Below are positions 1 through 25,722 of a stretch of DNA of 25,722 bases, one piece after another. The position numbers and the translations under genes were made by a program. Source of the DNA: a virus. Positions within the stretch are counted from its first letter, which is position 1; each line of letters starts with the position of its first letter. Below the pieces are notes generated by a model. The model was not told the origin of the DNA. It ran no database searches and was given only the letters and a program-made list of their open reading frames with translations. The stretch lies in the IMG/VR virus record IMGVR_UViG_3300020184_000030, positions 1-25,722 of that record; one strand, given 5' to 3'.

Positions 1-2072
1 GCAGCAACTTGCGTATTCTGTGAATTAGCGTTTGCTTGTGCTTGAATATTACGTTGTTGAGATTCTTGATCTTGCTGTAGTTTCTTTCTTCTACGTACTT
101 TTAATAATTGATTAGCAAGCTTGATATTTTTTATTTCTCTAATATCAATTGCATCTTCAAGATATATTTGGTCTTTTGCGAGTGCTTGTTGTATATTGTT
201 TTCAAGCATTCCTTTTTCTTCTTCATCTGGTGACAATTCAATGTAAATACCAAAATCATGCAAATGCATATTTTTAATATCTTCTAATGTACCAACATTA
301 AATCTTCCAATGCTTGAAATAAATGCATCTCTTGTTGGTGAAAATTCTAATACATCTGATATTCTTAAGCTTATTGCTTCAGCTGTTTTAGCAGTTAGGT
401 ATAAGCTTGATTGTAATATATGACGTGTAGCAGTATTTGAATTTGCTGCTGCAAGCTTTTGTACACCGACCAGTGCGTTTTTATCTGGCATAGAACCATC
501 TCTTGCTTCATTTAAGCCTGTTACGTCACGGATCATTTGTAAATAATAATTATAAGTGCTTATAAGTGAACTTATTTTATTATTACCGCCATTAGATGTT
601 AATTCTTGGATTGGTACTTTACCTGGATTTAAATCGCCGTCCTGAGTCATTGATCTACCAATAACAGAACCCGTTTGGAAGAACATATTCAATGCTTCTT
701 GCGGATTATAATTTGTTCCATTACCTAAATCAATTTCAGCCAATCCATCAGCATCTAAATAAACTCCATCAGGTATCATTCTTGATAATACTTGTTGTAG
801 CTTTAAATGCGTTAATTGAATCATATCTGCAAAACCAGTTATACGGCTTACAAGAGATTCAATACGACCTTTATATATTCTAGGAGCAACAACATGGTAA
901 TTAAGCATTACTTTTGTAGTATCGCTTTTTGGTCTTACCATATTTTTTGCAATTTCCCATTTAAGCATTTTTTTAGTACCTAAAACAAATGCACCATCAT
1001 AAACCACTTCAATTGATCTTGATTCTTTTGCAAATCTTGATCTATCATCTTTTGGAGGATTAAACTGATCGTTTTTAGGAATTGCTTTATCAGCACCAGA
1101 AGCTGTTTTCTTTATTTTAAATACTTCATTATTGTAAGTCTTATAATTAAAATATAAAACTTGAATAGTATTTGCATCTAAAACACTATCTTCATTAATA
1201 AATCTATTATGAGAAGCTGGCGTCTGTACACCTTGTTTAGTTAGGTTTTCTAAATCTTCATTAGTTAATTCAGGAAACTGTTGCTTTAACTCATTGATTG
1301 TCACGCTTTTAACTTCACCTATATAATATATATCATCAAAATAAGGTGAATACGTATATGAATAAACAATATCCGCAGGATCAACATACTTAAGTTTAAT
1401 ACCTTCAGACTTATTAAATTCATTTTTAACACAACCAATACCAATAACAGTTAAATCATAATTTACTCTTCTTTGTAGTAAATCATAATTATTTGCATTC
1501 ATTACAGAATTAATAGCTTGTTCTTGAGCTATTTCAATTGCTTGTTTGTATTCAAGCTGCATATGTAATGATAGTTCCTCTTCAGACTCTGGTAATTTTT
1601 CAGGATCATTATTATAAACATTAATCCCAAGTTGTTCTTGTATTTGATCAGATATTGCCCTTGTTTGCATATCTGTCATAATAGACTCAACATATTTTGT
1701 TCTTTGCTCAACAGAAGATGGATCTTGTGAAAAAGCTTTAACATCATATAATCTATCTGACATACCGTTTACAACGATGTCTACAAATTTTGGTATGATA
1801 GGTACAGGTTTCCAATCTAAATTAAGATAAGACAAATCACCGTTAATAGATAATTCATCTTTATATTTTTTTACAGACTGCTCACCTCTTGCATATAGTC
1901 TGAGTCTATGGTATTCATCTCTATTAGAATAGAATCTAGTAGCGCCTGAGTCTCTTTTGAACCATTCATGTTCAATAGCACGAGCTACTTCTAATCCGTA
2001 ATCTAAACTAGCCTTTTCAGCATCGCTTGCTATTTGACTTGGAAATGAACTTTTTAAAATTGTTTCAGCCAT
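1..2072 (-). CDS. Phage portal protein (partial, C-terminus outside window)
   Basis: The frame is open from an ATG at 2072 to the window edge, giving at least 690 residues and no stop. The portal forms the dodecameric ring at the capsid vertex through which DNA is packaged and ejected. The assignment rests on its place directly after the large terminase gene (stop TAG, one base, then ATG), its length, and the sequence style. An N-terminal part contains LRLYARGEQSVKKY and LNLDWKPVPIIPKFVDIVV, and a central part contains a segment around VTGLNEARDGSMPDKNALVG. These resemble portals of marine and Bacteroidota podovirus-like phages as I remember them. The C-terminal part is Gln-rich and helical (KLQQDQESQQRNIQ), as expected for the crown or barrel end of a portal. 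The leader is AT-rich with no Shine-Dalgarno. A structural or injection protein is a less likely alternative. Confidence 0.8.
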   Translation of the reverse strand, partial: MAETILKSSFPSQIASDAEKASLDYGLEVARAIEHEWFKRDSGATRFYSNRDEYHRLRLYARGEQSVKKYKDELSINGDLSYLNLDWKPVPIIPKFVDIVVNGMSDRLYDVKAFSQDPSSVEQRTKYVESIMTDMQTRAISDQIQEQLGINVYNNDPEKLPESEEELSLHMQLEYKQAIEIAQEQAINSVMNANNYDLLQRRVNYDLTVIGIGCVKNEFNKSEGIKLKYVDPADIVYSYTYSPYFDDIYYIGEVKSVTINELKQQFPELTNEDLENLTKQGVQTPASHNRFINEDSVLDANTIQVLYFNYKTYNNEVFKIKKTASGADKAIPKNDQFNPPKDDRSRFAKESRSIEVVYDGAFVLGTKKMLKWEIAKNMVRPKSDTTKVMLNYHVVAPRIYKGRIESLVSRITGFADMIQLTHLKLQQVLSRMIPDGVYLDADGLAEIDLGNGTNYNPQEALNMFFQTGSVIGRSMTQDGDLNPGKVPIQELTSNGGNNKISSLISTYNYYLQMIRDVTGLNEARDGSMPDKNALVGVQKLAAANSNTATRHILQSSLYLTAKTAEAISLRISDVLEFSPTRDAFISSIGRFNVGTLEDIKNMHLHDFGIYIELSPDEEEKGMLENNIQQALAKDQIYLEDAIDIREIKNIKLANQLLKVRRRKKLQQDQESQQRNIQAQANANSQNTQVA

Positions 2073-2073
2073 G

Positions 2074-4281
2074 CTATTTAATTATTTGCGAATGCATTCC
2101 TTTATTGTTAAATCTTTTTATTTGTATTCCTAATGATTGTTTTTCATGCTTTGGTTTCGGATGATATAAATGCCTATTGCAAGCCATGATAGCGAGCCCA
2201 GAGCTAATAGTTGCGTCATACTTTGTTCTTTTATTTATATCAAACCTTGCCCAATCATTTAATGTTCTATTAAAATAAATATTACCACTACCCTCTTCAT
2301 TATAACCAACATATTTATCTATATATGTTTCAATAGCGGCAGCGTGAGCTTGTTTTATGTCTTCAGATGTATTGGGTATTCCGCCAATTTCTTTTTCAGT
2401 TACAGATAATTTATTCCAAATTTTGTCAGGTCTATTCATTGAAAATCCTCTATAACCTCTTCGTTTCAAATGATATAGCAATCTAGGTTTGTTATTTTCT
2501 GCTAATATCGGCATTCCGTAAAATACTAATGCCATAAGTACATCTTCAAAAAATATTTCCGCGGTTTGTGGCCTTGCTACATATTCTAAAAAAAATGTAT
2601 TAGGTGGTGCATCTTCCATGCTAAACTTAGTTAATCCGTGAAGTGAACCTTTAGACCCAACACCATCTGTTGTTCCAGATATATCATATGAGTCACAACC
2701 AAAAGCGCCAACGTGCTCATTACCCGGATACTTTGCGCCATTCTTTACTATTACATTGTTTTGCAGATTCTTAGACGGTACCCAGCTAACTAAAAACCTG
2801 CCATTAGGATTAGGTGAGAATATAACTTTTGTATCCTTTATTCCATTTTCCCACGAAAACGATCCCTTAGTGACCAAACCATCTCTTGTAGCACTTTCAT
2901 TAAAATCAATCTGTTCATATATTTTGCTTAAATTAAATATACTATTTTTAGCTTCATCCCTAAACGCATGCTCTTCAGTACGAGGGAATTGACGATAATA
3001 TTCATTTAAACCGTCACTGTCATGTTTTAAACCATCAACTTCATTTTCCCAAAAGTCTATGACTCCGGTATCGATATAGTCTTCATCATTTCCAAGGACG
3101 GGTTCTTCTGGAGTATCAAAGACAGGGTATCCAAAAGAATCAATGTATCCTTCGTAGTTCCATTCCATAGGTATGAACAAACTATATAATCCCGAGCTAG
3201 TCTGTCCATTTTTATTTCGTCTTGTAACGTCTGAGTCATAATAAAGCTTTTTGAAGTTATCACCACCTTTTTCTAATGCATTGGATGTTGATCCCATCAT
3301 ACACTTTCCTATAATTCTACTACCTAAACGTAGCGTAGTTTTTGTTACTCTCCAGTTATTTAATATGTTATCAGGTCTTTCCCATTTACCTGATTCATCA
3401 TGCACTAATAACTTGAGCTTTTCACCATCATAACTGTTATCACCTGTATTCTTCCAGTCTATTGTTGTATCGAGCCCCTCAAGTATTTGCTTTTCACTCG
3501 TTTCTGTAATCGACTTTTTAGTGAGTTTGGATGCTGGTACCCTGTATGCAAGCTCTGACTTTGGTCTGTCCATTCCGTCTTGTATTGGTTTGAAAAAGAA
3601 CGGATAATTGACTGATATTGGTACCACTTTATCTGTGAACATTTTCTTTGCATCGCTACCGGACTTAGATAATATTCCAAATCTGGCATCTGATGTAATT
3701 GTAGCCTGGTTAACAGTCTCTGATGAGGCCATAAAGCTAAATCCAGAACGTCTGTTCTTAAGGTAGCACATTCCATAGCATCTTTTATCTGCCTTGCATG
3801 CTTCCCAGAATATGAAGAATAATCTGTTTGCTTCCCTATAATCTGGCTTCCCAACATCAATTTTGGTGTGCTGCAAGTACATATAATGAGAACCAGTAAT
3901 AAAAGTAGGGATACCTTTGTTAATGAACCAATAACCTTCTTCGCGTTTGGTAAATTCTCTATCAATATATGCATACCATTTGTTTTTAAAAGAATCCGGA
4001 TATGTTTCCCAATCAAATATACTTTTTACGTTTTTAAGCTCCTTAGGAAACTCATGTGTAGTCCATCTGTTATTATTGTTTTCAACTTCTTTTGGCTGAG
4101 GCGGTAATGCTATACACAGCCCTTGAATTTCAATTATCTCGCCAATCTTACCATTCTTACTGATAACAATAATATCGTGTTCTTTATTATATCCGTATTC
4201 CCATTTGTTATATCTATTTAATCTTTTGATTACGTTAGACTTAACTGGTGTTACGGTTTTAACTAATGTCTGTTCGTACAT
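2074..4281 (-). CDS. terL: Terminase large subunit (packaging ATPase and nuclease)
   Basis: This 735-residue protein is the DNA-packaging motor, which pumps DNA into the prohead through the portal and cuts the concatemer. A deviant Walker A loop lies at residues 174-182 (LKNRRSGFS), Walker B with the catalytic acid at 288-296 (KLKLLVHDE, D295/E296), and a motif III-like GSTSN at 330-334. The RNase H-like nuclease domain follows. Likely metal ligands are D530 (FGCDSYD), an acidic residue near E580 or E595 (AENNKPR), and D689 in a KYDATISSGLA segment. The N-terminal 130 residues form an extension before the ATPase core, and the total length is at the long end for TerL. The start overlaps the stop of the preceding small gene as TAATG. 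The portal gene follows after one base, a classical packaging order. Confidence 0.92.
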   Translation of the reverse strand: MYEQTLVKTVTPVKSNVIKRLNRYNKWEYGYNKEHDIIVISKNGKIGEIIEIQGLCIALPPQPKEVENNNNRWTTHEFPKELKNVKSIFDWETYPDSFKNKWYAYIDREFTKREEGYWFINKGIPTFITGSHYMYLQHTKIDVGKPDYREANRLFFIFWEACKADKRCYGMCYLKNRRSGFSFMASSETVNQATITSDARFGILSKSGSDAKKMFTDKVVPISVNYPFFFKPIQDGMDRPKSELAYRVPASKLTKKSITETSEKQILEGLDTTIDWKNTGDNSYDGEKLKLLVHDESGKWERPDNILNNWRVTKTTLRLGSRIIGKCMMGSTSNALEKGGDNFKKLYYDSDVTRRNKNGQTSSGLYSLFIPMEWNYEGYIDSFGYPVFDTPEEPVLGNDEDYIDTGVIDFWENEVDGLKHDSDGLNEYYRQFPRTEEHAFRDEAKNSIFNLSKIYEQIDFNESATRDGLVTKGSFSWENGIKDTKVIFSPNPNGRFLVSWVPSKNLQNNVIVKNGAKYPGNEHVGAFGCDSYDISGTTDGVGSKGSLHGLTKFSMEDAPPNTFFLEYVARPQTAEIFFEDVLMALVFYGMPILAENNKPRLLYHLKRRGYRGFSMNRPDKIWNKLSVTEKEIGGIPNTSEDIKQAHAAAIETYIDKYVGYNEEGSGNIYFNRTLNDWARFDINKRTKYDATISSGLAIMACNRHLYHPKPKHEKQSLGIQIKRFNNKGMHSQIIK

Positions 4282-4556
4282 TACCTAGATCTTCTTTCAG
4301 CAAATCCACCAAACGCTTCTTTCTTTTCAATGGGTTTATCTTCCATTAAATTCTTTTCGGCTTCTATGCGTGTAAGAATTTCGAAAGCATCGAATATTGC
4401 AAGTTTTTTAGTAGCAGCAGCGTTCTTTAATCTATCAGCAGCAAGTTCATCATCACCACCTTCTACAATTATTTCTTCCTCTGCTACCCGTATAAGCTCG
4501 TGTACTGCTTTATACCCAGCTTGTATTATATTCGACTTCAGTTCCTTTGCGTTCAT
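4281..4556 (-). CDS. Probable terminase small subunit
   Basis: This is a 91-residue acidic, mostly helical protein (ELKSNIIQAGYKAVHELIRV, then AEEEIIVEGGDDELAADRLKN) ending in a basic tail FAERRSR. Small terminase subunits are short helical oligomers that recognise DNA and load the large subunit. The assignment comes mainly from position: it lies immediately before terL and is coupled to it by a TAATG overlap. I see no clear helix-turn-helix, so the function is inferred. The ATG at 4556 makes the gene overlap the end of the upstream gene by 47 bases. That is unusual in this window, but it is the only plausible start, because the next Met is near the C-terminus. Confidence 0.5.
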   Translation of the reverse strand: MNAKELKSNIIQAGYKAVHELIRVAEEEIIVEGGDDELAADRLKNAAATKKLAIFDAFEILTRIEAEKNLMEDKPIEKKEAFGGFAERRSR

Positions 4557-5109
4557 ATTTAATTGAAATTGAATTAAGCGGTACTCTATATAATCGTTCG
4601 CCTTCTATAACAAACTCATATTCACTATTTGGCGTAAACCCTATTAAATCATTGTTTTGTAAACCAAAGTCCTTTAAATCGCGTCCTATGTGCTTTAAAA
4701 CACCCGTAAGCGGTTCTTCTTTATCATCTGAAAGACTATTTAGACTTTTAATTGGCTTTACAAAGCAAAAACCTGGCGGCGTGTACCATTTGCCACTTCT
4801 TTTATATAAAAATATTTGATCAGTAAAACAAAAGTATTTGTTTTCTTCAAAATAATTTCTACTGTTTTTTTCGTTACCTCGAATATCGTAATATCTTCTA
4901 AATACATTATGATGAATGATTACTTCATCACCTATTTGTAAATCATATTCGTCTTTAATAACTGGTGTTTCAATTATAATACCAGATCTATTCACAAACT
5001 TATGATCTTCTATTGATGTATTTAATATTAATTCTTGGTTTTCAACATTTTTCTTATTATTGTATCTGCCGTTAATTGGTTCAACAATATAAGCATGTGT
5101 ATGTTTCAT
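4510..5109 (-). CDS. Tandem GroES-like (co-chaperonin fold) protein
   Basis: This 199-residue protein appears to hold two GroES-like beta-barrels. Residues about 5-105 read as barrel one: AYIVEPINGRYNN, a long loop, SGIIIETPVIKDEYDLQIGD, EVIIHHNVFRRYYD. Residues about 114-186 read as barrel two: FCFVKPIK, a loop with SLSDDKEEPLTGVLKHIG in the mobile-loop place, GLQNNDLIGFTPNSEYEF, then GERLYRVPLNSISI. The order of strands, the loop after the first strand and the G-x-x-x-x-D turn match the 86-residue GroES encoded at 17971-18231. This is my own alignment by eye, so the fold is inferred. It starts with a TAATG overlap with the gene before it and runs 47 bases into the probable small terminase gene. 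It could be a head-assembly co-chaperonin or a structural protein built on the same fold. Confidence 0.5.
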   Translation of the reverse strand: MKHTHAYIVEPINGRYNNKKNVENQELILNTSIEDHKFVNRSGIIIETPVIKDEYDLQIGDEVIIHHNVFRRYYDIRGNEKNSRNYFEENKYFCFTDQIFLYKRSGKWYTPPGFCFVKPIKSLNSLSDDKEEPLTGVLKHIGRDLKDFGLQNNDLIGFTPNSEYEFVIEGERLYRVPLNSISIKYERKGTEVEYNTSWV

Positions 5110-5327
5110 TAATATTCTAAATTAAATTCAATTGATACTGCCATATTCTTATTAAAATGTTTCCATGGCAATATTTCGTCTTTTTTCTTTATATATATTA
5201 CGTATCCTTCTTCTTCTTCAAGTATTTCAGATATTATATGGCCTCCAAATACTTCTTGTCCAATACTATAATGCATTGCGTCGTTTTTATAATCACGACC
5301 AATTGATATTTTTCGTATTAAATTCAT
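5109..5327 (-). CDS. Small protein of unknown function
   Basis: This 72-residue protein is not recognised. It has a predicted beta-rich pattern (HYSIGQEVFGGHIISEILEE, GYVIYIKKKDEILPW) with an acidic EEEE stretch in the middle, and the word IGQEVFG resembles a small SH3-like barrel. It has no signal peptide or membrane helix. The gene lies between the second LamG adhesin and the tandem GroES-like gene, to which it is coupled by a TAATG overlap. The start codon follows an A/T-only leader (AAATTAAATAAAATAAAATG) typical of this window. The context suggests a late, head-related or packaging-related role, but nothing in the sequence proves it. Confidence 0.6.
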   Translation of the reverse strand: MNLIRKISIGRDYKNDAMHYSIGQEVFGGHIISEILEEEEGYVIYIKKKDEILPWKHFNKNMAVSIEFNLEY

Positions 5328-9880: not shown

Positions 9881-11173
9881 TTAGCTAAATTGTATAGTTC
9901 CATCTCCAGCTGTGAATACTGTTACTTTATCACTACCCTCTGTATAGGTATTAAATGTTAGTACAGTTGGCGAGGTTGTTTCTGTTATCGTATAAGCACT
10001 TGGATAACGTAAAATCACAACTCCAGAGCCTCCATTACCTCCAACTCTTGTTGAATCAGCGTTACTGCCGCCACCACCGCCACCGCCGCCTCCAGTATTT
10101 CCTGTGGCATTGAAACCAACCCCTGTGTTTTCTCCATCAGCGCCACCACCTAAACCTCCAGTGCCTACGGCTACTGATCCATAGCTACCACCCCCACCAC
10201 CACCAGCAAAGTAAACATCAGAACCAGATACCTCACCTACTGATGCAGTTGTAGCATTTGATGCACTCAAAATATTAACAGCTAATCCGACTCCGCCGTT
10301 TGTACCTCCAGTAGTGCTTCCAGTTTGATCAACACCAGCGCCACCTGCTCCACCTCCTCCTCCAGATGAATCACCATTAGTAGGAGCAGAAAATCCACCT
10401 CTATAACCTTGAACAACTGGGGTTGTAACCGCTTGTCCAGTCGCAGTTGCAAGTCCACGAGATTCTCCACCCCCAGAACCTCCGTCATTACCAGTTTTGA
10501 GGTATGGTGATGAAATTCCAGTTCCTCCACCTCCACCACCACTTGATGTTATTGTTGAAAATACAGAATTAGAACCATTATATCCTTTTGTCCAAGGACT
10601 ATAATCATTACCATTCCCCCCAGGTCCAACTGTTACAGTATAATTTGTAGATAATAATAAAGATAAAGATGTTTCAGCACTACCTCCTCCACCAGTTATT
10701 GAGCCATACGATGTTCTTAAACCTCCAGCACCTCCCCCTGCACCTTCATTTCCTCCACCACCTCCGCCTCCAGCGACTACTAAATAATCAACTGTTATTG
10801 TACTTGGTACTAAAGCAGTAGCAGTTTCATTAGTGGCATTATAAGCTATCCAGCCTTGAGTAGCATCTACATAAACCATAGATACTCCGCCTCTTTGGTA
10901 AGCTATTGAAACATCATCAGATACACCATTAATATTATCACTCGATGTTATTGTGATATTGTTAGTATCAGCAGTACCAGCGTAATCAACTATAGAAACC
11001 TCATCCCCAGCAGTTGGACTGCTTGGAAGCGTAACTGTAATTGCAGTACTTGTAGTATCAACAAAATAACCTTCCCCAGCAACGGCCGTAAAGTCTGCTG
11101 TTTTTGGAGTAGCTTGCCAGTCTGTTCCTAAAGAACCGTCAATTAAATCTGTTATAAGTTTTGTTAATGCCAT
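9881..11173 (-). CDS. Gly-rich tail fibre or adhesin, 430 aa
   Basis: After a short fibre-like N-terminus (MALTKLITDLIDGSLGTDWQ) this protein has a beta-sandwich at residues about 21-127 (ATPKTADFTA, ITVTLPSSP, NNITITSSDN). A glycine-rich domain follows at 128-388 with many runs of five to nine Gly, including nine in a row at 361-369. A short C-terminal beta module ends GDGTIQFS. Residues 21-430 align almost end to end with residues 568-966 of the protein encoded just upstream (11176-14076), so the two are paralogues by duplication. Gly-rich domains of this kind occur at the tips of phage adhesins, where polyglycine helices carry variable receptor-binding loops. That role is inferred here. 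It starts two bases after the stop of the paralogue. Confidence 0.75.
   Translation of the reverse strand: MALTKLITDLIDGSLGTDWQATPKTADFTAVAGEGYFVDTTSTAITVTLPSSPTAGDEVSIVDYAGTADTNNITITSSDNINGVSDDVSIAYQRGGVSMVYVDATQGWIAYNATNETATALVPSTITVDYLVVAGGGGGGGNEGAGGGAGGLRTSYGSITGGGGSAETSLSLLLSTNYTVTVGPGGNGNDYSPWTKGYNGSNSVFSTITSSGGGGGGTGISSPYLKTGNDGGSGGGESRGLATATGQAVTTPVVQGYRGGFSAPTNGDSSGGGGGAGGAGVDQTGSTTGGTNGGVGLAVNILSASNATTASVGEVSGSDVYFAGGGGGGSYGSVAVGTGGLGGGADGENTGVGFNATGNTGGGGGGGGGSNADSTRVGGNGGSGVVILRYPSAYTITETTSPTVLTFNTYTEGSDKVTVFTAGDGTIQFS
9884..11113 (-). repeat. Duplicated Gly-rich adhesin end (copy in the 430-aa gene)
   Basis: Residues 21-430 of the 430-residue protein correspond to residues 568-966 of its upstream neighbour (11179-12375). 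The order of elements is the same: ATPKTADFTA, ITVTLPSSP, ITVDYLVVAGG, GGGAGGLRTSYG, TNYTVTVG, VVQGY, YTITETTSP and a GTIQFS end. The final coding bases share a 17-base identity (9885-9901 with 11180-11196). The Gly tracts differ in length and position. Confidence 0.8.
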
Positions 11174-11175: not shown

Positions 11176-14076
11176 TTAACTAAATTGTATAGTTCCGTTT
11201 GTTCCAGCCGTGAATGTTGTTACTTTGTCGCTACCATCTGTAGCAGTTGTAAATGTTAGTACATTTGGTGATGTAGTTTCTGTTATTGTGTAGGCATTTG
11301 GATAGCGGATTATTACAACTCCAGAGCCGCCATCTCCGCCAGCGCTTGTGTTTGTAGGCGAGTTATTCCAGCCACCTCCACCGCCGCCGCCACCAGTATT
11401 TGGTGATCCATCAGTTGATTGTATAGAAGTGTTACTACTACCAGCAGCACCATTACCACCACCACCAGAACCACCACTACCAGCAAAAACAGTTGTAGAT
11501 GCAAAAATTGCTTTACCACCAGCTCCACCACCAGCGTAAGTTACTGATGATCCTGTTATACTATTAGCTAATCCATCTCCACCGCTTGCTCCAGTTGTAG
11601 AAGAGGATGCATTTGCTCCTACAGCACCAGCTCCTCCGCCTCCTCCACCATCATTATCTCCACCACCATCTCCCCCAGCGTATCCTTGCACTACAGGTGA
11701 AGTTACAGCAGCTGCACCTTGGTTAGAAGTTGACCTTGAACCTCCACCACCAGAGCCACCAGATACAGCATTATCAATATTATCAAAACCTCCGCCACCA
11801 CCACCAGTTGATGTTATAGTTGCAAATGTAGAATCACTCCCCTCTGTTGGATTCCAATTACTTGTATTGCCTCCAGTACCTCCAGATCCAACTGTAACTG
11901 TGTAATTTGTTTCACTTTCTAATAATAAAGATGTTTCAGAACTTCCGCCCCCACCAGTAGTACCACCATAAGATGTTCGTAAACCACCAGCTCCTCCACC
12001 ACCTCCAAAAATACCACCTCCACCAGCTCCACCAGCAACTACCAGATAATCAACTGTTATTGCACCTGGATTTAAAGCTGAAGCAGTTTCATTAGCTGCT
12101 GACTTTACAAGCCAACCTTTTGTAGCTCCTGTGTACATAAGATTTACAGCACCATTATCGTAATTAATAACTTTATCATCAGCAGAGTTTTGAATATCAT
12201 CATTTGATGTAACTGTAATATTATTTGTTCCTGCATTAGAACTATAATCAATAATTCCAACTTCATCTCCTTCACTTGGAGAAGACGGTAATGTAACTGT
12301 AATTTCCGCAGAGGTTGTATCTACTAAATGTATTTTGTTTGTGGCAGCAGTAAAATCTGCTGTTTTAGGTGTTGCATCTAATGTTACCGATGCCCCTGAA
12401 GAAACAACATTATTTAATCCTCCTGTTGATTTAACCTCTATAGTTGAACCGTTTGGAGGAGCTGCAGAAAATGTTAATGTACTTCCAGATAAACTGAATG
12501 TATCTTTTTGCTGATACAATCCATTAATGTAAACATCAATAGCATTTTCACTAGCAGGACTTGTTGAAAGTGTATAATCAACTTGTGATCCTGTTCCGTT
12601 AAAGTTGTCTACATAAAGAGTGTCATTAAATATAGATACTGAACCTACTGTAATAACTTCAATACTATAACCACTAAGTGGTGCTGAAGTGAAAGTTAAT
12701 GTTGTTCCACTTATAGAGTATGTATCTTTTTCTTGATACACCCCTTGAATAAACACAAAAGAATTATCAACCGTAACGCCTTGTGTTAAAGTGAAATCTG
12801 TTTGTGATCCTGTCCCAGTAAACTGATTACTATTCAATGTTGAATATTCAGCTGCTGTAAAATGTACGACCTCTATTGCACTACCACTTGGAGGTGCGGT
12901 GGAAAAAGTGATAGTTGTCCCAGAAGTCGTATAGTTGTCTTTAGACTGATAAACTCCGTCTATGTATACTTGTGTAACGTTTTCGTCTGTAACGTCCTTA
13001 GAAGCCGTGAAATTGACTGTAGAAGCGTCCCCAGTAAACGTATCTGTATAAACTTTTGATAATACGGAAATAAAATGTACAACTTCAACTTCAGCTCCTG
13101 CTGGAACCCCTGTTGAAAATGTTATTGTTGATCCGCTTGTTGTGTAATTGCTTTTAGCTTGGTACACCCCATCAATATACACTTGTGTATTACTCGATGC
13201 AGTTATTTCAGATGATATTGTAAATGCTGTTTGGTTTGCAGTAGCAGTAAATACGTCTCTTTCTATTAAGAGCTCTCCTCCACTACCACCACCTGATCCT
13301 GCGATAGCACCCCACTGTGTTCCGTCATATCCTTCAAACTGTGAGTCATCTGAATTGAATCTGAACATACCAGCAACACCTGTTGGTCTTTCTGCTGTAG
13401 TTCCTGAAGGTAATTGAGCTGCTGTAGTATTATCGCCACTATTTTCCCAAACCTGTAGCGTTGTATCATATATAAGTAAATCCCCTGTACCTAATGTACC
13501 TAGTTTTACATCATGCAGATCATGAACCCCTTCATTAGCTTGTACACGAACTTGTATTTTACCGTTTGTTGCCGCATTTAAAACTATTGCAGCAGCTATT
13601 TTGTAATTAGGACCATTAGGCTCTGTTAAAGTATAATCACCTGGATTTGATGGGTCAAGCCATAGTACATCCCCATCACTCCAAGTTTCACCATTCTGCC
13701 CTAATGTATTGAACTGGTCAATTTCACCTAAATGAATAACTCTACCAATATCTCCATTGTCAAGGTCTGTTTCTAATACTCCAATAAAGTATTTTGACTC
13801 TACAGAACCATCAGCAACCATTTCATCAATAAGAATGTGCCCAGAATTTCCATCTGTACCAACAGCTCTTACTGCTTTTCCTTTAATGATTGTAGATCCA
13901 GAAGAGTTTTTTACATTGTAATATACAAGATTAGAGTCCGCAGTAGCAACAGCAGCATCAACAAAGCTTAAATTACCAGCACCATCTGTTGCTATTACCT
14001 GATCAGCAGTACCGTCCTGTGCGGGCAGTGTATACTCATCGTTTATTCTTATATTATTTAAGAAACGATTAGCCAT
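11176..14076 (-). CDS. Modular tail fibre with four beta repeats and Gly-rich tip, 966 aa
   Basis: Domains in order: an N-terminal docking segment MANRFLNNIRINDEYTLPA (compare MALNFLNNIDLNKNQVQN in the next protein upstream) with DGAGNLSFVD at 31-40. A beta-rich domain of unknown type follows at about 45-260. Four tandem repeats of about 70 residues lie at 273-549, each with a core like VYIDGVYQxKDNYTTSGTTI then FS-x-PP-x-G-x-x-IEV. A beta-sandwich at 568-673 and a Gly-rich domain at 674-925 come next, then a short C-terminal module ending NGTIQFS. The last 400 residues are duplicated in the gene that follows (9881-11173). The architecture is that of a trimeric phage fibre or adhesin: attachment end, repeated shaft, receptor-binding tip. 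No catalytic motif is visible. It lies eight bases after the upstream fibre gene. Confidence 0.78.
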   Translation of the reverse strand: MANRFLNNIRINDEYTLPAQDGTADQVIATDGAGNLSFVDAAVATADSNLVYYNVKNSSGSTIIKGKAVRAVGTDGNSGHILIDEMVADGSVESKYFIGVLETDLDNGDIGRVIHLGEIDQFNTLGQNGETWSDGDVLWLDPSNPGDYTLTEPNGPNYKIAAAIVLNAATNGKIQVRVQANEGVHDLHDVKLGTLGTGDLLIYDTTLQVWENSGDNTTAAQLPSGTTAERPTGVAGMFRFNSDDSQFEGYDGTQWGAIAGSGGGSGGELLIERDVFTATANQTAFTISSEITASSNTQVYIDGVYQAKSNYTTSGSTITFSTGVPAGAEVEVVHFISVLSKVYTDTFTGDASTVNFTASKDVTDENVTQVYIDGVYQSKDNYTTSGTTITFSTAPPSGSAIEVVHFTAAEYSTLNSNQFTGTGSQTDFTLTQGVTVDNSFVFIQGVYQEKDTYSISGTTLTFTSAPLSGYSIEVITVGSVSIFNDTLYVDNFNGTGSQVDYTLSTSPASENAIDVYINGLYQQKDTFSLSGSTLTFSAAPPNGSTIEVKSTGGLNNVVSSGASVTLDATPKTADFTAATNKIHLVDTTSAEITVTLPSSPSEGDEVGIIDYSSNAGTNNITVTSNDDIQNSADDKVINYDNGAVNLMYTGATKGWLVKSAANETASALNPGAITVDYLVVAGGAGGGGIFGGGGGAGGLRTSYGGTTGGGGSSETSLLLESETNYTVTVGSGGTGGNTSNWNPTEGSDSTFATITSTGGGGGGFDNIDNAVSGGSGGGGSRSTSNQGAAAVTSPVVQGYAGGDGGGDNDGGGGGGAGAVGANASSSTTGASGGDGLANSITGSSVTYAGGGAGGKAIFASTTVFAGSGGSGGGGNGAAGSSNTSIQSTDGSPNTGGGGGGGGWNNSPTNTSAGGDGGSGVVIIRYPNAYTITETTSPNVLTFTTATDGSDKVTTFTAGTNGTIQFS
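12430..13260 (-). repeat. Four tandem coding repeats of about 70 codons
   Basis: Residues 273-549 of the fibre encoded at 11176-14076 contain four copies of a beta module. Copies lie at about 273-335, 344-406, 416-477 and 489-549. The core of each is VYIDGVYQ (or a variant such as VFIQGVYQ or VYINGLYQ), then KD, then SGTTITF, then a Pro-Gly turn and IEV. Sequence differences between copies are clear, so the duplication is not recent. Such repeats normally make up a fibre shaft. Confidence 0.8.
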
Positions 14077-17210: not shown

Positions 17211-17534
17211 TTATTTTTTTGTTTGTCTTCTATATGCTTCAGCTTCCCATTCTAATTTAGGAAACCCTTCTTTCATTCCTTTTCTAGGATACTTTCTTCC
17301 TTTCCAATATACATAGTCATCATCATAACTTAAATCTTTACGAAGTATTTGTTCTCTGTGAATACGTTCGTGTGATTCAGCTACTTTTTGTTGTACAGGT
17401 GAAAGTTTTTTATTAATAACGATAGTGCCATCATCTAATGTTACACCGTGCACACCAGGTGCTAAATTCTCTTTTAGTGAAGGTTTGCTTTCGTGTATTA
17501 GCGACATCATATCGCTTTTCATTTTATAACCCAT
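17211..17534 (-). CDS. Small HExxH metallopeptidase-like protein
   Basis: This 107-residue protein contains HERIH at residues 55-59 (in KVAESHERIHREQILRKD) and a downstream acidic segment LEWEAEAY at 94-101. Together these give the layout of a minimal gluzincin-type zinc site (two His, one Glu ligand, catalytic E56). A beta hairpin with LDDGTIVINKKLSP precedes it at about 33-46. I recall similar small proteins from marine phages, but their substrate is unknown to me. It is much shorter than typical secreted proteases and has no signal peptide, so a cytoplasmic or virion role is more likely. The start overlaps the stop of the winged-helix gene as TAATG, so the two are probably translated together. 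Confidence 0.65.
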   Translation of the reverse strand: MGYKMKSDMMSLIHESKPSLKENLAPGVHGVTLDDGTIVINKKLSPVQQKVAESHERIHREQILRKDLSYDDDYVYWKGRKYPRKGMKEGFPKLEWEAEAYRRQTKK

Positions 17535-17974
17535 TATCGTTCTTTGTCTTTGTGCATATCTTCTATAGCGGCATTAAATACTTTATCGCTATAGCTTCTG
17601 TTTTTATTAAACACATTTCTATGTGTTGTAGGTAAGTCTTCTTGGCCTAATAATATTCTGTAGATTCTTGATATTAGATGCTTACACTTTGTTGAAACCT
17701 TATATACGTTATATTTAACAGTAGTATGATTTCTTTTAATATATATATCTATCCAACCATTTTTACGTAATCGTTCCCAGCGATGTTTATCCCAAGAATG
17801 TATATATGTACCTTTTATGTAATCATCACGTGTAAAACGACCAAGACAATCAAAATGTATTAATAATTCAAGATCACCATCAGTTAGCTTATATGTTTTA
17901 CAAGCCCACTTCCTAACTAATCTATAATATTTAAAAAGACCAAGTCTTCTAATATCATCAGACTCTAGCCTCAT
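17534..17974 (-). CDS. Winged helix-turn-helix (MarR-like) protein
   Basis: This 146-residue basic protein has an N-terminal helix (LGLFKYYRLVRKWACKTYKL). A likely winged-helix domain follows at about 30-95: helix TDGDLELLIHFDCLG, helix RDDYIKG, recognition helix SWDKHRWERLRKNGW, then a wing with IDIYIKRNHTTVKYNVYKVS. The C-terminal helix SRIYRILLGQEDLP could dimerise. The order resembles MarR-type DNA-binding proteins, and I remember this family from many marine phages without a known function. DNA binding is inferred. The ATG overlaps the groES stop (ATGA), and its own stop overlaps the HExxH gene start (TAATG). It is therefore tied both to the chaperonin pair and to a putative peptidase. 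Confidence 0.68.
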   Translation of the reverse strand: MRLESDDIRRLGLFKYYRLVRKWACKTYKLTDGDLELLIHFDCLGRFTRDDYIKGTYIHSWDKHRWERLRKNGWIDIYIKRNHTTVKYNVYKVSTKCKHLISRIYRILLGQEDLPTTHRNVFNKNRSYSDKVFNAAIEDMHKDKER

Positions 17975-18231
17975 AATACTACAACAACATCTTGTTCTTT
18001 TATGACTTGTAGGTATTCACCATCAAAGTCTATACCGTAACCAGCATGTCTGTCGTAATATATGTTATCCCCTGGAGCAATTCCTTCAACATAATTACCA
18101 ACAGAACGTACTTCAGCTTTTCTATATCGTATGTCATCTTGATGTTTTTCTGTAAGGATTAAACCTGATTCGTTTGGTTTAACTTCTTCCTTAATTGATT
18201 TAATTATAATAAATTTATTTACAGCCCGCAT
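17971..18231 (-). CDS. groES: Phage GroES co-chaperonin
   Basis: This 86-residue protein matches the GroES fold from start to end: FIIIKSIKEE strand, mobile loop with ESGLILTEKH (the SGLIL anchor corresponds to GGIVL of E. coli GroES), YRKAEVRSVGN, PGDNIYYDRHAGYGIDFDG, then EYLQVIKEQDVVVVL. GroES caps the GroEL ring and closes the folding chamber. From the VGN to the PGD turn there are about nine fewer residues than in E. coli GroES, so the roof beta-hairpin is missing or very short, a feature also known from T4 gp31. The gene overlaps the end of groEL by 13 bases and overlaps the next gene by four (ATGA). It is most likely the partner of the adjacent GroEL. Confidence 0.9.
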   Translation of the reverse strand: MRAVNKFIIIKSIKEEVKPNESGLILTEKHQDDIRYRKAEVRSVGNYVEGIAPGDNIYYDRHAGYGIDFDGEYLQVIKEQDVVVVL

Positions 18232-19784
18232 GATCCTTCTCTTACATTAGAAATTATACAGTCCGCTGACATAATTGTTGTTGCTACAGATACTGCATTT
18301 CTTAAAGCAGTTTTTGTAACCAGCACAGGATCAATTATACCTTCTTTTACAAGATTAACAGTTTTCCCGCTAATTACATTAATTCCTCTACCTTTTTTTA
18401 CAACAGTTTCATAAGGAATTCCAGCATTATCAAGAATTTTCTTATAAGGTGCTTTAATAGCGTTAAACAGTATGTTATAACCATCACTGTTGTTTGTAGC
18501 TATGTTATCAGCCGCATTGTGCAAAGCCACACCAGCACCAGGTACAATACCATCTTTTAATGCTGCTTTTACAGCATAAATAGCATCTTCAACCCTATCT
18601 TTTTTTTCTTTAAGTGCTATTTTAGAATCAGCGCCTACATATAACATTCCGACTGAACCAGAAAGCATTGCTTTACGCTGTTCAAGCTTTTTAAGCAAAT
18701 AAGGATTTTTTTCTTCCTTTAATTGCTTTTCAATAACATCTATTCTATCTTTAACTTCTTTAGTTAACTCTTCAATAGTTATAACAGTGTTATTATCATC
18801 CGTAACGGACTTTTGTGCTTCACCTAGTACTGATTCATTAATTAAATCTAAATCGTCTCCTAACTCCTCTGAAATGACTGTAGCACCCGTAAGTGCGGCT
18901 AAGTCATCTAGCATATCTCTTCTTAAGTTAGAAAAACCAGGTGGATCAATAAAGTTTACTTTAATATTACCTTTAACCTTATTCATTATAAGTGCAGATT
19001 GCACTTGAGGTGAAAGATTACCAATAATAAGTATTGATCTTTTATTTTTTATAGCATATTCCAATACCGCTTGTATCTTTCTAATAGTTGAAATTTCAGA
19101 ATCAACTAATAATATTAACGGTTTTTCAAGTTCTGCTTTATTTTTTTCTTTATCTGTAATTAAATGCTGTGATTTTAAACCACTGTCAAACTGAACACCA
19201 TCTATAATATCTATAAACGTTTCATCAGTATCAGACTCTTCCATAAGGACCACGCCATCTTTACCCACTTTGTTATACGCATCAGCAATTAATTTACCTA
19301 ATATTACATCATTGTTTGTAGAAATATTAGCTACATGCTCTAGCATCGAGTCCTTAACCGGGATTGAGCTACTTTCTAAATATTTAATTACTTTAGAACT
19401 TGCTTCAATTATATCTTCTTTAATTTTTCTTAAATCAGATTTTTTAGAAGCTACATATTCTTTTAAAATGGAGTGTGCGAGGACGGTACTAGTTGTAGTA
19501 CCATCACCCGCTTCCTTTACTGTTTTTTGTGCTGCCTCTTTAACGAGGGTCGCGCCTATGTTCTCAACTGGATCCATAAGCACCACACTATTCGCAACAG
19601 TCACTCCGTCTTTTGTTACAATCGGTTTACCAAGTGCGTCTTCATATATAACACATTTACCCGATGCTCCTAGAGTTGATGAAACAGCTTCAGCGAGCTT
19701 TTCAACTCCAGCCATTATTTTGTTTTGAGCGTCATCGCCAAAGTTTAAATCTTTAACAATTTCACTCGGATTATTAAATTCCAT
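18219..19784 (-). CDS. groEL: Phage GroEL chaperonin
   Basis: This 521-residue type I chaperonin aligns along the full length of E. coli GroEL. ATP-site elements are kept: TLGASGK (37-43), TKDGVTVA with D59 (57-64), AGDGTTTSTVLA with D94 (92-103), the catalytic Asp equivalent D400 in DRVEDA (397-401), and GAGVAL (416-421). The apical domain is more divergent: the E. coli segment GYLSPYF is GLKSQHL here, and two helix positions that bind substrate and GroES are Gln. The C-terminus ends SCGL with no Gly-Gly-Met tail. GroEL folds proteins inside an ATP-driven double ring with GroES. A phage copy probably serves virion proteins, as in phages EL and OBP, but its clients are unknown. The leader is ACTAAATTTAATTTAATGG. 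Confidence 0.96.
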   Translation of the reverse strand: MEFNNPSEIVKDLNFGDDAQNKIMAGVEKLAEAVSSTLGASGKCVIYEDALGKPIVTKDGVTVANSVVLMDPVENIGATLVKEAAQKTVKEAGDGTTTSTVLAHSILKEYVASKKSDLRKIKEDIIEASSKVIKYLESSSIPVKDSMLEHVANISTNNDVILGKLIADAYNKVGKDGVVLMEESDTDETFIDIIDGVQFDSGLKSQHLITDKEKNKAELEKPLILLVDSEISTIRKIQAVLEYAIKNKRSILIIGNLSPQVQSALIMNKVKGNIKVNFIDPPGFSNLRRDMLDDLAALTGATVISEELGDDLDLINESVLGEAQKSVTDDNNTVITIEELTKEVKDRIDVIEKQLKEEKNPYLLKKLEQRKAMLSGSVGMLYVGADSKIALKEKKDRVEDAIYAVKAALKDGIVPGAGVALHNAADNIATNNSDGYNILFNAIKAPYKKILDNAGIPYETVVKKGRGINVISGKTVNLVKEGIIDPVLVTKTALRNAVSVATTIMSADCIISNVREGSCGL

Positions 19785-19804: not shown

Positions 19805-20098
19805 TTATTCAAAAGTTTTTACGACCACAGGTCCTTCAGCTAATTTCAGCTTTTGTGTATAATGTTCAATAGATGCATCAATAGCTTTTTCAGCTCCTTT
19901 GATAGATTCTCTACGTGTTATACCTTTCCATTCGCCGTTTAAATCTTTTAATTCTGCTTGGTAATAACCGTTATGTAACTGCGTTATTCTCCAATTCTTT
20001 TTTTCAATGCAGCTTTTCCATACGTCTAAGGTTTCTTTTGGAATCTGGTTGTTTTCATCGTTTGTCCATGTATTAGACTTGTAATAAAAATAAGTCAT
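19805..20098 (-). CDS. Hypothetical protein upstream of groEL
   Basis: This 97-residue protein is not recognised with confidence. It opens MTYFYYKSNTWTNDENNQIP with several aromatic residues. It then has a beta-strand pair (WRITQLHNGYYQAELKDLNG) and a charged helix (ESIKGAEKAIDASIEHYTQK), and ends GPVVVKTFE. The pattern suggests a small globular alpha/beta protein, without Cys clusters, membrane segments or a known catalytic motif. It lies 20 bases before groEL and 62 bases after the Cys-rich gene. The 62-base gap is one of the few places in this window where a promoter could sit. Similar proteins may exist in other marine phages, but I cannot confirm it. Confidence 0.55.
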   Translation of the reverse strand: MTYFYYKSNTWTNDENNQIPKETLDVWKSCIEKKNWRITQLHNGYYQAELKDLNGEWKGITRRESIKGAEKAIDASIEHYTQKLKLAEGPVVVKTFE

Positions 20099-20455: not shown

Positions 20456-23400
20456 TTATGCTATTGCTAAATATATGTAAGTTCCTCCTGATGCGTTTAC
20501 TCCTGAGCCTGATGCAGCAATAGTAAAACCATCTGAATTGTATGTAATTACATCACTTGTTGTACTTTCTTGGTCTGATAAATTTGCATATAATTGCCTA
20601 TCGTTTGTACCATCTCTAAGTTGGTCATATATATACCAATCCCCTGTTGAATCTGTTCTTTTAATCATTATCCATCTTGGTTCAAATGTTGTATATACAG
20701 TTTTAGCACTTGAACCATTCCCTGTATAACTCCCCACCTTCTGATACCCATCAATGTCTGCAAAAGAATACATTACATAACTTCCCCCTGAAGCGTTGTA
20801 TTGTGCTGATTGGGATGAACTTGTAAATTTAAAAACATCAGACGTTTGAGTATATTGATATTGACTATCGGTTGTAGCAGCAGCCGTTGTATTAAGTTCC
20901 ATAAATTTATTAGAACCTAATATTGGTAAAGGTACCCACCACGAATTAGCAGCATCTGTTCTTTTAATAATTACCATTTTTTGTTCAATTCCAAGTCCGT
21001 GTCCGACAGTAGCATTTTGCGTATTATTACCTGTGTAAGTAGCAATACTAAACCCCGCATCAGTATTTGCACTAACTGTTGACGTTATACTACCATCAGT
21101 ATTGTTGTTAGCGGAAACAGTTCCCCCTGCTTTCCAACACCAAGCGACTAATGGGTCACCACTTTCATTGTGAGAAAAATCGAATCTTTGAGTATCGACT
21201 CTTACCGTAAAACCATTAGAATCAAAAGATTGTATATAATCTGTATCTGCTATTTCAGCGGATGTACCACTTGGCATAAGTGGATTTGTGCCACCTCTTA
21301 TTGAATCTAAAAGAACGTGATGGTCTGAATCACTTCTTGACTTTATCCAAACCAAATCCGGTTGGAATGAAGTTCCTACAAAACTTACATTTGTAGGTGT
21401 TCCGTCATAAGCGTAGGATACATTTGTTGCTGTGCCGTCATATGTTGGGTATTCTGCAGGATCTGAATATGTTATTGATGTTGCAGTTCCGTTGTAGCTT
21501 CCTGTTTCATCATTAGCGTTACCATCTAATTTGTAATGAGCAACAAGGTTTGTTGTTGGTACGCTTGATTCGTTGTATAGGTTAGTTACATCTGAACTAC
21601 TTAATGCTGAAGAGTATATTCTTACTTGGTCTACCGCCCCTATTATACTTGCACCTGAACCTGTATTACCATATCTATTCCCAATATACGTAGCGTGAGT
21701 AGGGGTTTGATTATTTATAAAATCAGGCGAAGTACCATTTAATATAGATGCTCCGTTTAAATAAACAACATAAGCGCCATTATTATAAGTTAAACATAAA
21801 TGATACCAACTACCATCTTTTATGCTTGAAGAAGAAGTGTAAAATACTTGAGATTGGTCTGTATCTCTAAAAGACAAAGCTATATTGCCTGAACTATAAT
21901 CTGTAAAAAGAGCATAACCTGTATTACCTCCAACTGTTGCTCCGTTACCAAAATAAATATCCTCTCTATTATTCGCAGTTGATGTATGTTTAAACCACCC
22001 TGAAACTGTAAAAACAGTTGTTGAGGCTCCATAAGCAGTATTAGGAAAATTAAAAATTGAAGTGGTCCCATTAAAAACAGCACTCTGTCCGCTGTCTATC
22101 GCTCTAACTGTATCATTAGCATTCCCCTCTAATTCATACAACGCAACACCACTACCATCATCAAATATATCTTTAGTTGATTTTGTAGCTGATGCTGATG
22201 TTTCTCCGTATAAGGTTGTTACTTCACTTGATGATAGGGCTTTATTAAATATTCTTACTTGGTCTATTTTACCTTCATAAGAAGATGCACCAAGACTACC
22301 TGCATTTGTACCAAATCTATTATTTGATAAATTATGAGTGTCTCCACTTGTCCAATACGTTCTTGTTCCTGATAAATGAGATACACCATCTAAATAACAA
22401 ATAAAGGTATTGTCAGACTCCATAACTAAAGATATATGATGCCAAGTACCATCACAAATATCAGTTGTCCCTGTAAATGCTTGATTCTGACCTGGTGTTC
22501 CGTGTGTAAAATTAACTGATAAATAACCATTTGTAGGTGTTCTTACAATAGAAAAACCTGTATTTGCTGAACTTCCTCCGCCTGCATCAAGCATAGTGCC
22601 AGTATTAGAATCTTTTATAGTGGTGTTCATCCAAAAAGAAACAGTTGAGGTAGTAGAAGTGGTTGAAGAAGATATATCTACATAAGAAGCAGAAGATGTT
22701 TGTAACCCATTAAATGTACCACCATTTCCAATATATCCAGATATACCCCCAGTGTCTTTTGCTCCTTCTTCAAATTCATATAAAGCAACCCCAGAGCCGT
22801 CACCAAAAATATCAGTTGTAGATGCAGTAGATAGATTACTTGGTTCACCGTATAGTGTTGTTACTTCATTTAATGATAATGCTTTGTCAAAGATTCTTAC
22901 TTGGTCTATTTTACCATTGAAACTATTAGAAGATAAATCTTGTGCAATTCCAAGAAGAGCGCCATTAGTTAAAGAAAAAGAACCACTTTGTGTTGAGCCA
23001 TAATCTGTGGTAGCCTCTAAACTTCCATCAACATACATTTTAACAGTATGGCTTGTATTGTCTAATACCCAAGCAAAATGATGCCAATTTCCATCATTTA
23101 GACCTGTTGTAGTTCCGTTTCCATAATAATCAGTTCCGCCAACTCTTGTGTTGTTATTTACAGCTCCTGTTCCAAGCAATCCCGCATTTCCTAAATAATT
23201 AGAGGAATTGAATGCTGTTATAAATCTTTGATAATTTGTATTGGTTGTATTAAACCAAAGAGAATATGATAAATCGCCCCAAGTATTAAAGTAACTATCT
23301 AAATCTAAAGATATATAACTACTACTCCCATTAAAAGCAGCAGCAGTACCAATCTTACCTTCTATGCTTTGTGTTGAACCATTACCTGTATAGGTATTTA

Positions 23401-24094
23401 TTGTAAAGTTTTCAGATGGAGTTAATTCAGAAGCATTAACTGTAATAGAGAAGTTTCTTGGAGTAGATTGATTTTCATCATCAATAGCTTCAATAGTAAA
23501 GCTGTATAATGTTGTAGATGATTCAGCAGTTGTAGTACCGTCAATATTTGCACCTGTCAAGGACAGCCCCGTTGGCAATGCTCCATTGGTTATATTAAAA
23601 GTAATTGTCCCACCATCAGGTTCTGTAGCCTGTAGTGTTATAGTTGATATAGTTGTTTCAGATTCAAATATACCTAAAGAACCAGCAGGAGTTGTCCATG
23701 TTGGAATACCGTTATATGATATACCATTTACAAATGTACCAGATGCACCAGTTACAGTATTAGTTACAACAATATCATAATCACCAGCAGCTTTAGCAGG
23801 GGTTGTAATTGTAAGTTGCGTACTAGAGTCGTGTGCAACAGAAGGTGCGGTTGTACCACCAATACTAACCGTCATACTGCTTCCAAAGTTTGTACCAGTT
23901 AATACTACTGTTTGTCCTCCTGCAGGATCTGCAGCGGTGTCATCTCCTGGATAATCAACAGATGTAACTGATGGTCCTGTAGATGCCTGTGACCATGACA
24001 TACTGCCATCTGCATTTGTCATTAGGAAATAACCATCTGTTCCGTGACCTACTACGCCAAAGAACTGCCCTGCTTTTATTTTAGTGTCAGCCAT
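20456..24094 (-). CDS. Large LamG-containing adhesin or tail fibre, 1212 aa
   Basis: Domains in order: an N-terminal attachment-like segment (1-40, MADTKIKAGQFFGVVGHG, ADGSMSWSQA), an IPT/TIG Ig-like domain (about 42-128, with GGQTVVLTGTNFG), and a cadherin/putative-Ig-like domain (about 129-221). Three LamG jelly-rolls follow (about 250-416, 458-628, 671-842), each ending with DQVRIF or DQVRIY and the LYGE or LYNE motif. A C-terminal three-part module lies at 907-1212 (QPDLVWIK to AWCWKAG; a VIIKRTDAA part; a WIMIKRTDST part to TYIYLAIA). The C-terminal module and LamG repeats are shared with the adhesin at 5354-8611, so the two are paralogous mosaics. A role in binding host surface glycans is likely but inferred. 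The start overlaps the stop of the previous gene as TAATG. Confidence 0.82.
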   Translation of the reverse strand: MADTKIKAGQFFGVVGHGTDGYFLMTNADGSMSWSQASTGPSVTSVDYPGDDTAADPAGGQTVVLTGTNFGSSMTVSIGGTTAPSVAHDSSTQLTITTPAKAAGDYDIVVTNTVTGASGTFVNGISYNGIPTWTTPAGSLGIFESETTISTITLQATEPDGGTITFNITNGALPTGLSLTGANIDGTTTAESSTTLYSFTIEAIDDENQSTPRNFSITVNASELTPSENFTINTYTGNGSTQSIEGKIGTAAAFNGSSSYISLDLDSYFNTWGDLSYSLWFNTTNTNYQRFITAFNSSNYLGNAGLLGTGAVNNNTRVGGTDYYGNGTTTGLNDGNWHHFAWVLDNTSHTVKMYVDGSLEATTDYGSTQSGSFSLTNGALLGIAQDLSSNSFNGKIDQVRIFDKALSLNEVTTLYGEPSNLSTASTTDIFGDGSGVALYEFEEGAKDTGGISGYIGNGGTFNGLQTSSASYVDISSSTTSTTSTVSFWMNTTIKDSNTGTMLDAGGGSSANTGFSIVRTPTNGYLSVNFTHGTPGQNQAFTGTTDICDGTWHHISLVMESDNTFICYLDGVSHLSGTRTYWTSGDTHNLSNNRFGTNAGSLGASSYEGKIDQVRIFNKALSSSEVTTLYGETSASATKSTKDIFDDGSGVALYELEGNANDTVRAIDSGQSAVFNGTTSIFNFPNTAYGASTTVFTVSGWFKHTSTANNREDIYFGNGATVGGNTGYALFTDYSSGNIALSFRDTDQSQVFYTSSSSIKDGSWYHLCLTYNNGAYVVYLNGASILNGTSPDFINNQTPTHATYIGNRYGNTGSGASIIGAVDQVRIYSSALSSSDVTNLYNESSVPTTNLVAHYKLDGNANDETGSYNGTATSITYSDPAEYPTYDGTATNVSYAYDGTPTNVSFVGTSFQPDLVWIKSRSDSDHHVLLDSIRGGTNPLMPSGTSAEIADTDYIQSFDSNGFTVRVDTQRFDFSHNESGDPLVAWCWKAGGTVSANNNTDGSITSTVSANTDAGFSIATYTGNNTQNATVGHGLGIEQKMVIIKRTDAANSWWVPLPILGSNKFMELNTTAAATTDSQYQYTQTSDVFKFTSSSQSAQYNASGGSYVMYSFADIDGYQKVGSYTGNGSSAKTVYTTFEPRWIMIKRTDSTGDWYIYDQLRDGTNDRQLYANLSDQESTTSDVITYNSDGFTIAASGSGVNASGGTYIYLAIA
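20459..21376 (-). repeat. Copy of the three-part fibre module in the second adhesin
   Basis: Residues 907-1212 of the adhesin at 20456-24094 repeat the block found twice in the other LamG adhesin. At the DNA level it shares perfect stretches, for example 20721-20746 with 5646-5671 (26 bases), showing that the copies were exchanged or duplicated fairly recently. Confidence 0.75.
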
Positions 24095-24964: not shown

Positions 24965-25722
24965 TTATTCATATATAGCAGAAGTACAAGAATTGCATAT
25001 TGTACCCCAAGCATGTTGTAATACTTCTTTATGTTTTATACTGCCCCAAGCATTTTTTAATGTTGTTTCTTTAAGATTAGCATATTTATGTTCCATATGA
25101 TAATCATTGCAGCATAGGAATAATTCAGAGTTTGCATTTACATGTATCCATTCCGTATCTCTTTTGCCCATACACCCAACAACTTTTTTATCTTTATGCA
25201 CAAAAGGCGATGAACTTATATAATCGTCTATAAGGCCGGCCCTATCTATAAGGTGCGGTTGTTTAAATACATTAGTATTTGGAAACATTTCTTTAGCAAT
25301 AGCTACCTGTTCATCTAATTCTGTATCTGATATGTCTGGAAACTTAGGACCTTTAAGTGCCCCTGACTCATGATCATGCCCATTAATCTGTATAGATAAT
25401 AAATTTTTATTTTTAAGATTGGTATAAGCATACGACACATTCATTTTTAAACGTTCAAATATGCTTTGGTTCATATTAGTGCGTTTTGCAAATAACTCTG
25501 CATCTGACCATATTGGCGCATTTACACATACTCCCCATATTACATCTGGATATTTATTTATTATATCCACTTTATCCGGCGTTAATGTTGTACCATTAGT
25601 TAATACAACCATCCCTAGACTAAATTCACGCAATGTTTCTAGCATTTCTTCAAAATACCTATATAACAATGCTTCATTATAATGGGATGTATATATACCA
25701 TTAAATTCAGGGGAAACAATAT
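24965..25722 (-). CDS. Radical SAM/SPASM protein (N-terminus outside window)
   Basis: The frame is open to the right edge, so the N-terminal part with the expected CxxxCxxC cluster is not in view. A TTG at 25669 is not needed as a start, because the frame continues upstream with SPEFNGIYTSHYNEALLYRY. The visible part has a VVLTNGTTLT strand and loop typical of radical SAM barrels. Its C-terminus has a SPASM-like cysteine set: VVGCMGKRDTEW, LFLCCNDYH and TICNSC, followed by AIYE. SPASM proteins bind extra iron-sulphur clusters and often modify peptides or proteins. The substrate here is unknown, and no obvious small precursor peptide is seen next to it. It is followed by a 134-base gap. Confidence 0.8.
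   Translation of the reverse strand, partial: IVSPEFNGIYTSHYNEALLYRYFEEMLETLREFSLGMVVLTNGTTLTPDKVDIINKYPDVIWGVCVNAPIWSDAELFAKRTNMNQSIFERLKMNVSYAYTNLKNKNLLSIQINGHDHESGALKGPKFPDISDTELDEQVAIAKEMFPNTNVFKQPHLIDRAGLIDDYISSSPFVHKDKKVVGCMGKRDTEWIHVNANSELFLCCNDYHMEHKYANLKETTLKNAWGSIKHKEVLQHAWGTICNSCTSAIYE

Follow-up and report, generated by a model that had tools for sequence, protein, structure and literature searches.

Components of chaperonin systems have been described from several phages. The T4 co-chaperonin Gp31, which has no roof loops, acts on the large capsid protein of that phage (PMC6318259). The phages EL and OBP encode GroEL homologues with known single-ring states (PMC5934643) and no known co-chaperonin (PMC5934643, PMC7185714), and the EL protein is 22% identical to GroEL (PMC7185714). 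Marine-virus GroEL has been reported from genomes that include 36 phi38:1-like ones (Nishimura et al. 2017, PMC5332604), the core genes of the Pervagoviridae include a cpn10 (PMC8776804), and the phi38:1 GroEL has been detected in infected cells (PMC13288928). Outside phages, the chloroplast co-chaperonins Cpn10 and Cpn20 combine, and seven GroES domains make up each mixed lid (PMC5780408).

The stretch of DNA analysed here, hereafter the window, is an IMG/VR virus record of 25,722 bases. It belongs to a lineage of marine podoviruses that is akin to Pervagoviridae, Pachyviridae and Elemovirus; cultured relatives of this lineage have Flavobacteriaceae as hosts. The GroEL-groES pair that it carries is of a kind already known in such phages, and the GroEL of the group was published in 2017. 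The window also carries a tandem GroES-like gene. A tandem co-chaperonin in phages was nowhere described in the literature searched, and public records label the gene merely cpn10 or GroES. The set of three genes, in which the second lid protein is Cpn20-like, seems to be undescribed.

Like the window, the phages elemo (NC_055853, Elemovirus) and ctfjg026 (MW202828) have groEL followed by groES with a short overlap, as well as a tandem GroES gene before the large terminase subunit (TerL) and portal genes. Their GroELs are sister to that of the window on the tree, although they share just 35–36% identity with it, and the elemo pair lies on the strand opposite its neighbours. The Cellulophaga phages phi38:1 and Calle (Pervagoviridae) likewise encode both a GroEL and a single GroES and have a tandem GroES gene ahead of TerL, but differ in that groES comes first and one ORF intervenes before groEL. 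T4 Gp31 and the window GroES are both phage co-chaperonins without the roof hairpin; the partner of Gp31 is the host GroEL, whereas the window phage encodes an adjoining GroEL, which is 38% identical to GroEL. The phages EL and OBP, which an earlier note on this DNA had named as comparators, are poor ones given their want of a known co-chaperonin; the closely related phages are podoviruses that infect Flavobacteriaceae.

The groEL-groES pair and its ancestry

The main genes of the window are all on the minus strand and encode portal, terminase, tail-fibre-like proteins, endolysin and holin. The groEL-groES stretch had 0 base differences from an independent 66,302-base contig, other parts of which carry genes for virion structural proteins, a ribonucleotide reductase, a thymidylate synthase and a primase/helicase. 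Both the window and this contig are phage. The chaperonin genes and their immediate neighbours are as follows.

17534..17974, minus strand: conserved 146-aa ORF, overlapping groES by 4 bases
17971..18231, minus strand: groES, co-chaperonin of 86 aa with a single domain and no roof hairpin
18127..18174, minus strand: groES mobile loop, residues 20-35 (..SGLILTEK..), from alignment
18219..18231, minus strand: groEL/groES overlap, 13 bases
18219..19784, minus strand: groEL, 521 aa, group I chaperonin, full length
19805..20098, minus strand: clade-conserved 97-aa ORF immediately upstream of groEL

The complete pair that had been proposed at 17971-19784 was recovered as two overlapping minus-strand ORFs at those coordinates. 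GroEL matched Pfam Cpn60 over residues 30-513 (E 8.5e-52) and PHROG 5725 (E 7e-132), and it aligned end to end with a GroEL of solved structure, as a three-domain Cpn60 does. Matches to Pfam and PHROG ruled out chance ORFs for groEL and groES.

The aspartates that the earlier note had read as ATP-site residues (D59, D94 and D400) correspond to D52, D87 and D398 of E. coli, and these three, together with D495 and the GDGTTT loop (E. coli numbering), were invariant in all 31 clade members compared. The apical face is altered. L234Q was found in 31/31 members and both Y199L and Y203H in 28/31, while in the apical groove L237 is retained and V263 and V264 show conservative substitutions. Both the D83-K327 and the R197-E386 salt bridges are substituted, the former being charge-swapped in many members. 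Positions 105, 109, 461, 463 and 464 join both rings in E. coli GroEL. In the clade they fell in the 96th–99th percentile of variability, but they were not so variable in the bacterial sample. The protein is also without the GGM tail. Taken at the level of sequence, the altered apical face, salt bridges and ring contacts and the missing tail point to a client and lid of the phage's own, and perhaps to a single ring, a state known from the chaperonins of phages EL and OBP. In one relative (locus L106, record G036) GroEL is interrupted by stops and TerL is split; sequencing errors are likelier than decay here because both genes are affected.

GroES scored 35.4 bits against Pfam Cpn10 (cut-off 21.1). 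Its predicted structure (pLDDT 84.8) matched the fold of solved Cpn10s (E 3.4e-6) and of Gp31, with low model confidence at residues 21-30, within the mobile loop. The hydrophobic tripeptide of the loop was found throughout the clade as GLIL and variants of it. When the loop variants were listed against the GroEL apical residues, no clear coupling rule was seen. In alignment, the residues between VG and GD that form the roof hairpin are absent. This absence is not decisive for membership of the GroES/Cpn10 family, because Gp31 is also without the hairpin.

The order of the two genes was determined in a survey of viral contigs such as had been proposed earlier. It was found that groEL precedes groES in all 41 assessable members, the window included, with an overlap of 1–31 bases in 40 of them. 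A second scan, which had a few contigs in common with the first set, gave the same order in 80/80 contigs, 77 of them overlapping. The 13-base overlap in the window points to probable translational coupling. The order is also annotated in cultured phages, namely the Flavobacterium elemo phages, and in podovirus MW202828; Panino has it with a gap instead of an overlap. The overlapping pair is therefore not the rarity that it had been taken for. The bacterial order was found in immuto, SJC03 and MW202566. Among the bacterial GroELs sampled that have a neighbouring groES, 75 showed the bacterial order and two planctomycete copies were reversed. The planctomycetes (L152 and L199, Blastopirellula marina and Phycisphaeraceae) have two nearby groEL genes, one of them then followed by groES. 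Gene order in virioplankton chaperonins is reportedly linked to GroEL phylogeny, in work attributed to Marine et al. (ISME J, 2017).

The 4-base overlap of the 146-aa ORF with groES was seen in 41 placements. In elemo, Panino and MW202828 the pair is adjoined by homologues of this ORF (there named 'repressor protein') on the opposite strand. By eye, the 146-aa protein appears winged-helix-like, and its gene may belong to the cassette as a third member.

In the tree of GroELs, the window clade forms one branch (SH-aLRT 100), which joins the elemo, Panino and MW202828 GroELs (SH-aLRT 92) and is placed outside the bacteria sampled (SH-aLRT 97), in a quick search that has several long phage branches and bacteria picked by similarity to the query. 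The tree omits 'phage' records in which host genes flank groEL. One such record, CAKLQH020000021 (L206), is labelled Acinetobacter phage and carries groS-groL amid apparently chromosomal genes (lipid kinase, diacylglycerol kinase); public counts of GroEL-bearing phages are inflated because of such records. Gene order changes twice on the tree, once in this phage group and once in the planctomycete pair. The independent assembly of the pair, which the earlier note had offered as one reading of its order, does not follow, since a once-captured operon that was later rearranged would give the same single change.

Divergence of GroEL was paralleled by that of TerL (Mantel r 0.882, 21 loci) and of the tandem gene (Mantel r 0.885, 24 loci). 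The placement outside the bacteria and the parallel divergence of GroEL and TerL therefore support the long residence in phages that had been suggested. It is highly improbable that a groES-groEL operon was recently captured from a host, or that the contig is bacterial or chimeric. The top-scoring bacterial GroELs are from Flavobacteriaceae, the likely host family, as would be expected under capture, but the closest is 42% identical and the clade lies outside the sampled bacteria. Phage genes stand on both sides of the pair, and the reversed order is present in all assessable members of the window clade. A chimera of a single assembly is ruled out because the identical stretch occurs in the independent 66,302-base contig.

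A tandem GroES-like gene before the terminase

A second GroES-family gene at 4510-5109 was overlooked in the first reading of the window. It lies in the packaging neighbourhood, which comprises the following features.

3..2072, minus strand: portal protein (PHROG 6547, E 5.6e-138), truncated by the window end
2074..4281, minus strand: TerL (PHROG 6681, E 3.6e-164)
4281..4556, minus strand: 91-aa ORF between the tandem gene and TerL; its position alone makes it a small-terminase candidate
4510..5109, minus strand: tandem GroES-like (Cpn20-type) gene, 199 aa (PHROG 13932, E 7.9e-19)
4795..5109 (approximate limits), minus strand: tandem domain 1, with (E)LILN mobile-loop-like motif
4540..4794 (approximate limits), minus strand: tandem domain 2, without mobile-loop motif
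5109..5327, minus strand: 72-aa ORF adjoining the tandem gene on its upstream side

PHROG 13932 bears the name 'co-chaperonin GroES'. An AF2 model of the tandem protein, built from 25 relatives, has two beta domains (pLDDT 84.8). Its top PDB fold match was 7ekq_R, a Cpn20, over the whole length (E 3.8e-4), with Cpn10 and GroES chains next in rank, and its best named viral match was 'Chaperonin cpn10' of Cellulophaga phage phi18:3. In profile comparisons, domain 2 matched bacterial Cpn10 (E 4.6e-6) and domain 1 matched phage GroES (E 1.5e-4); controls gave E values of 0.01 to 0.6. The unsplit profile showed weak similarity to the GroES profile, and the split halves with their controls gave a clearer result. 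Counterparts of the gene exceed the Pfam Cpn10 cut-off in phi18:3, phi19:3, phi46:3, phi38:1 and Calle. No match of the two halves to each other was found by profile comparison, so the case for a tandem duplication depends on the fold and on the separate matches of the halves.

The (E)LILN motif sits in domain 1 at the position of the GroES mobile loop. The protein also has a strongly conserved HHNVFRR motif without GroES counterpart. In Cpn20 a mobile loop is present in both domains. Cpn20 of chloroplasts and apicoplasts shares with the window protein the head-to-tail arrangement of two GroES-like domains and the company of a single-domain co-chaperonin, but the window protein is phage-encoded, has the loop in domain 1 only and shows no detectable sequence kinship to plastid Cpn20 by single-sequence or profile search. 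Searches of PDB sequences returned nothing meaningful with the single sequence and one weak, unrelated match with the profile. On the predicted model, the protein appears Cpn20-like in build and is not assigned as a member of Cpn20.

The tandem gene was present in 73/73 contigs that were selected via the terminase and had sufficient upstream sequence, and its position is conserved in elemo, MW202828, Panino, phi38:1, phi18:3, phi19:3 and phi46:3. Together with the 72-aa ORF it is conserved in ~100 loci, including elemo, MW202828 and Panino. In Gundel_1 the tandem gene was not seen, and Pfam matched neither GroES nor GroEL there. A single GroES was found in every complete relative checked that bears the tandem gene. 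Three Pachyviridae (phi18:3, phi19:3 and phi46:3) have the tandem gene along with one single GroES, and lack GroEL; the tandem gene is hence not tied to a phage GroEL. GroEL-less fragments of 19-52 kb with the tandem gene were disregarded as incomplete.

Probable roles of GroEL and the two putative lid proteins

From the sequences, gene order, conservation and predicted folds observed above, we infer the ring state, clients and lid combination. The locus is likely to encode a phage-owned, vertically inherited group I chaperonin with an altered client and lid face and two types of lid protein. To judge from its sequence, the phage GroEL would hydrolyse ATP and enclose a client beneath a lid of its own GroES, which would be produced by translation coupled to groEL. 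It may work as a single ring, because the ring-contact residues are not conserved. By analogy with T4 Gp31, the short GroES without its hairpin may leave space for large clients. Several observations weigh against this explanation: the apical residues that normally bind GroES and client are partly replaced (L234Q, Y199L and Y203H), domain 2 of the tandem protein is without a mobile loop, sequence searches matched the window's tandem protein to no solved co-chaperonin, and in three Pachyviridae the tandem gene is present though a phage GroEL is not.

The tandem protein would probably supply a second or mixed lid for the folding of head or tail proteins, such clients being suggested because the gene lies beside terminase and portal. 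On the chloroplast model, three tandem proteins and one GroES would give seven domains, and such a mixed lid would grip GroEL by four loops because domain 2 has none. Alternatively, each lid might act alone, or the tandem protein might have lost GroEL binding and serve as an assembly factor. The full combination, in which a mixed seven-domain lid of three tandem proteins and one GroES caps a single-ring GroEL dedicated to head or tail proteins, is doubtful as it stands. If it were true, tandem co-chaperonins would have arisen separately in phages and plastids.

A role of the tandem protein in the virion, in packaging or in assembly, with GroES folds retained and GroEL binding lost, is possible but on the unlikely side. 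Its fixed position before TerL and portal, the domain without mobile loop and the conserved HHNVFRR motif would all be consistent with such a role. The retained (E)LILN motif in domain 1 and the accompanying single GroES in every complete tandem-bearing relative argue against it, as does, weakly, the record of phi18:3, in which neighbours such as the portal carry MS/MS proteomics notes and the tandem protein is annotated by similarity only. It is unlikely, too, that GroES and the tandem protein act chiefly on the host GroEL, as Gp31 does in T4, with the phage GroEL optional. The three Pachyviridae with both lid genes and no GroEL point in that direction, but within the window clade groEL and groES always adjoin and mostly overlap, and the changed apical face of GroEL suggests a private partner.

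There is little likelihood that the phage GroEL forms part of the virion or serves some other non-folding role. A dimethylated phi38:1 GroEL peptide was reported from free-virion samples (PMC13288928), but a chaperonin present in abundance can be carried along when virions are purified after lysis, and both the intact ATP site and the retained groES speak for folding. The explanation of a phage-owned chaperonin with two types of lid protein is the one followed here. It would provide a compact system with cultured relatives (elemo phages, phi38:1 and phi18:3) for asking why a phage keeps its own GroEL, and relatives having both lid genes, with or without a phage GroEL, offer natural comparisons. 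A Cpn20-like co-chaperonin outside plastids would be a second, apparently unrelated setting for even-numbered lids capping seven-membered rings.

Other genes of the window

At the far end of the window, 24965-25720 on the minus strand encodes a SPASM-domain phage protein truncated at the window end. A full copy is present at L002:3894-4820, with the radical-SAM-type cysteine motif CNAGCWFC at its N-terminus, and no further copy was found among the loci fetched. Two large tail-fibre-like paralogues with laminin-G-like and DUF7483 domains (20456-24094 and 5354-8611, minus strand) flank the structural and lysis genes, one on each side. The adjoining minus-strand genes at 9881-11173 and 11176-14076 encode glycine-rich proteins whose C-terminal glycine-rich parts are alike, and the two are apparently a local duplication.
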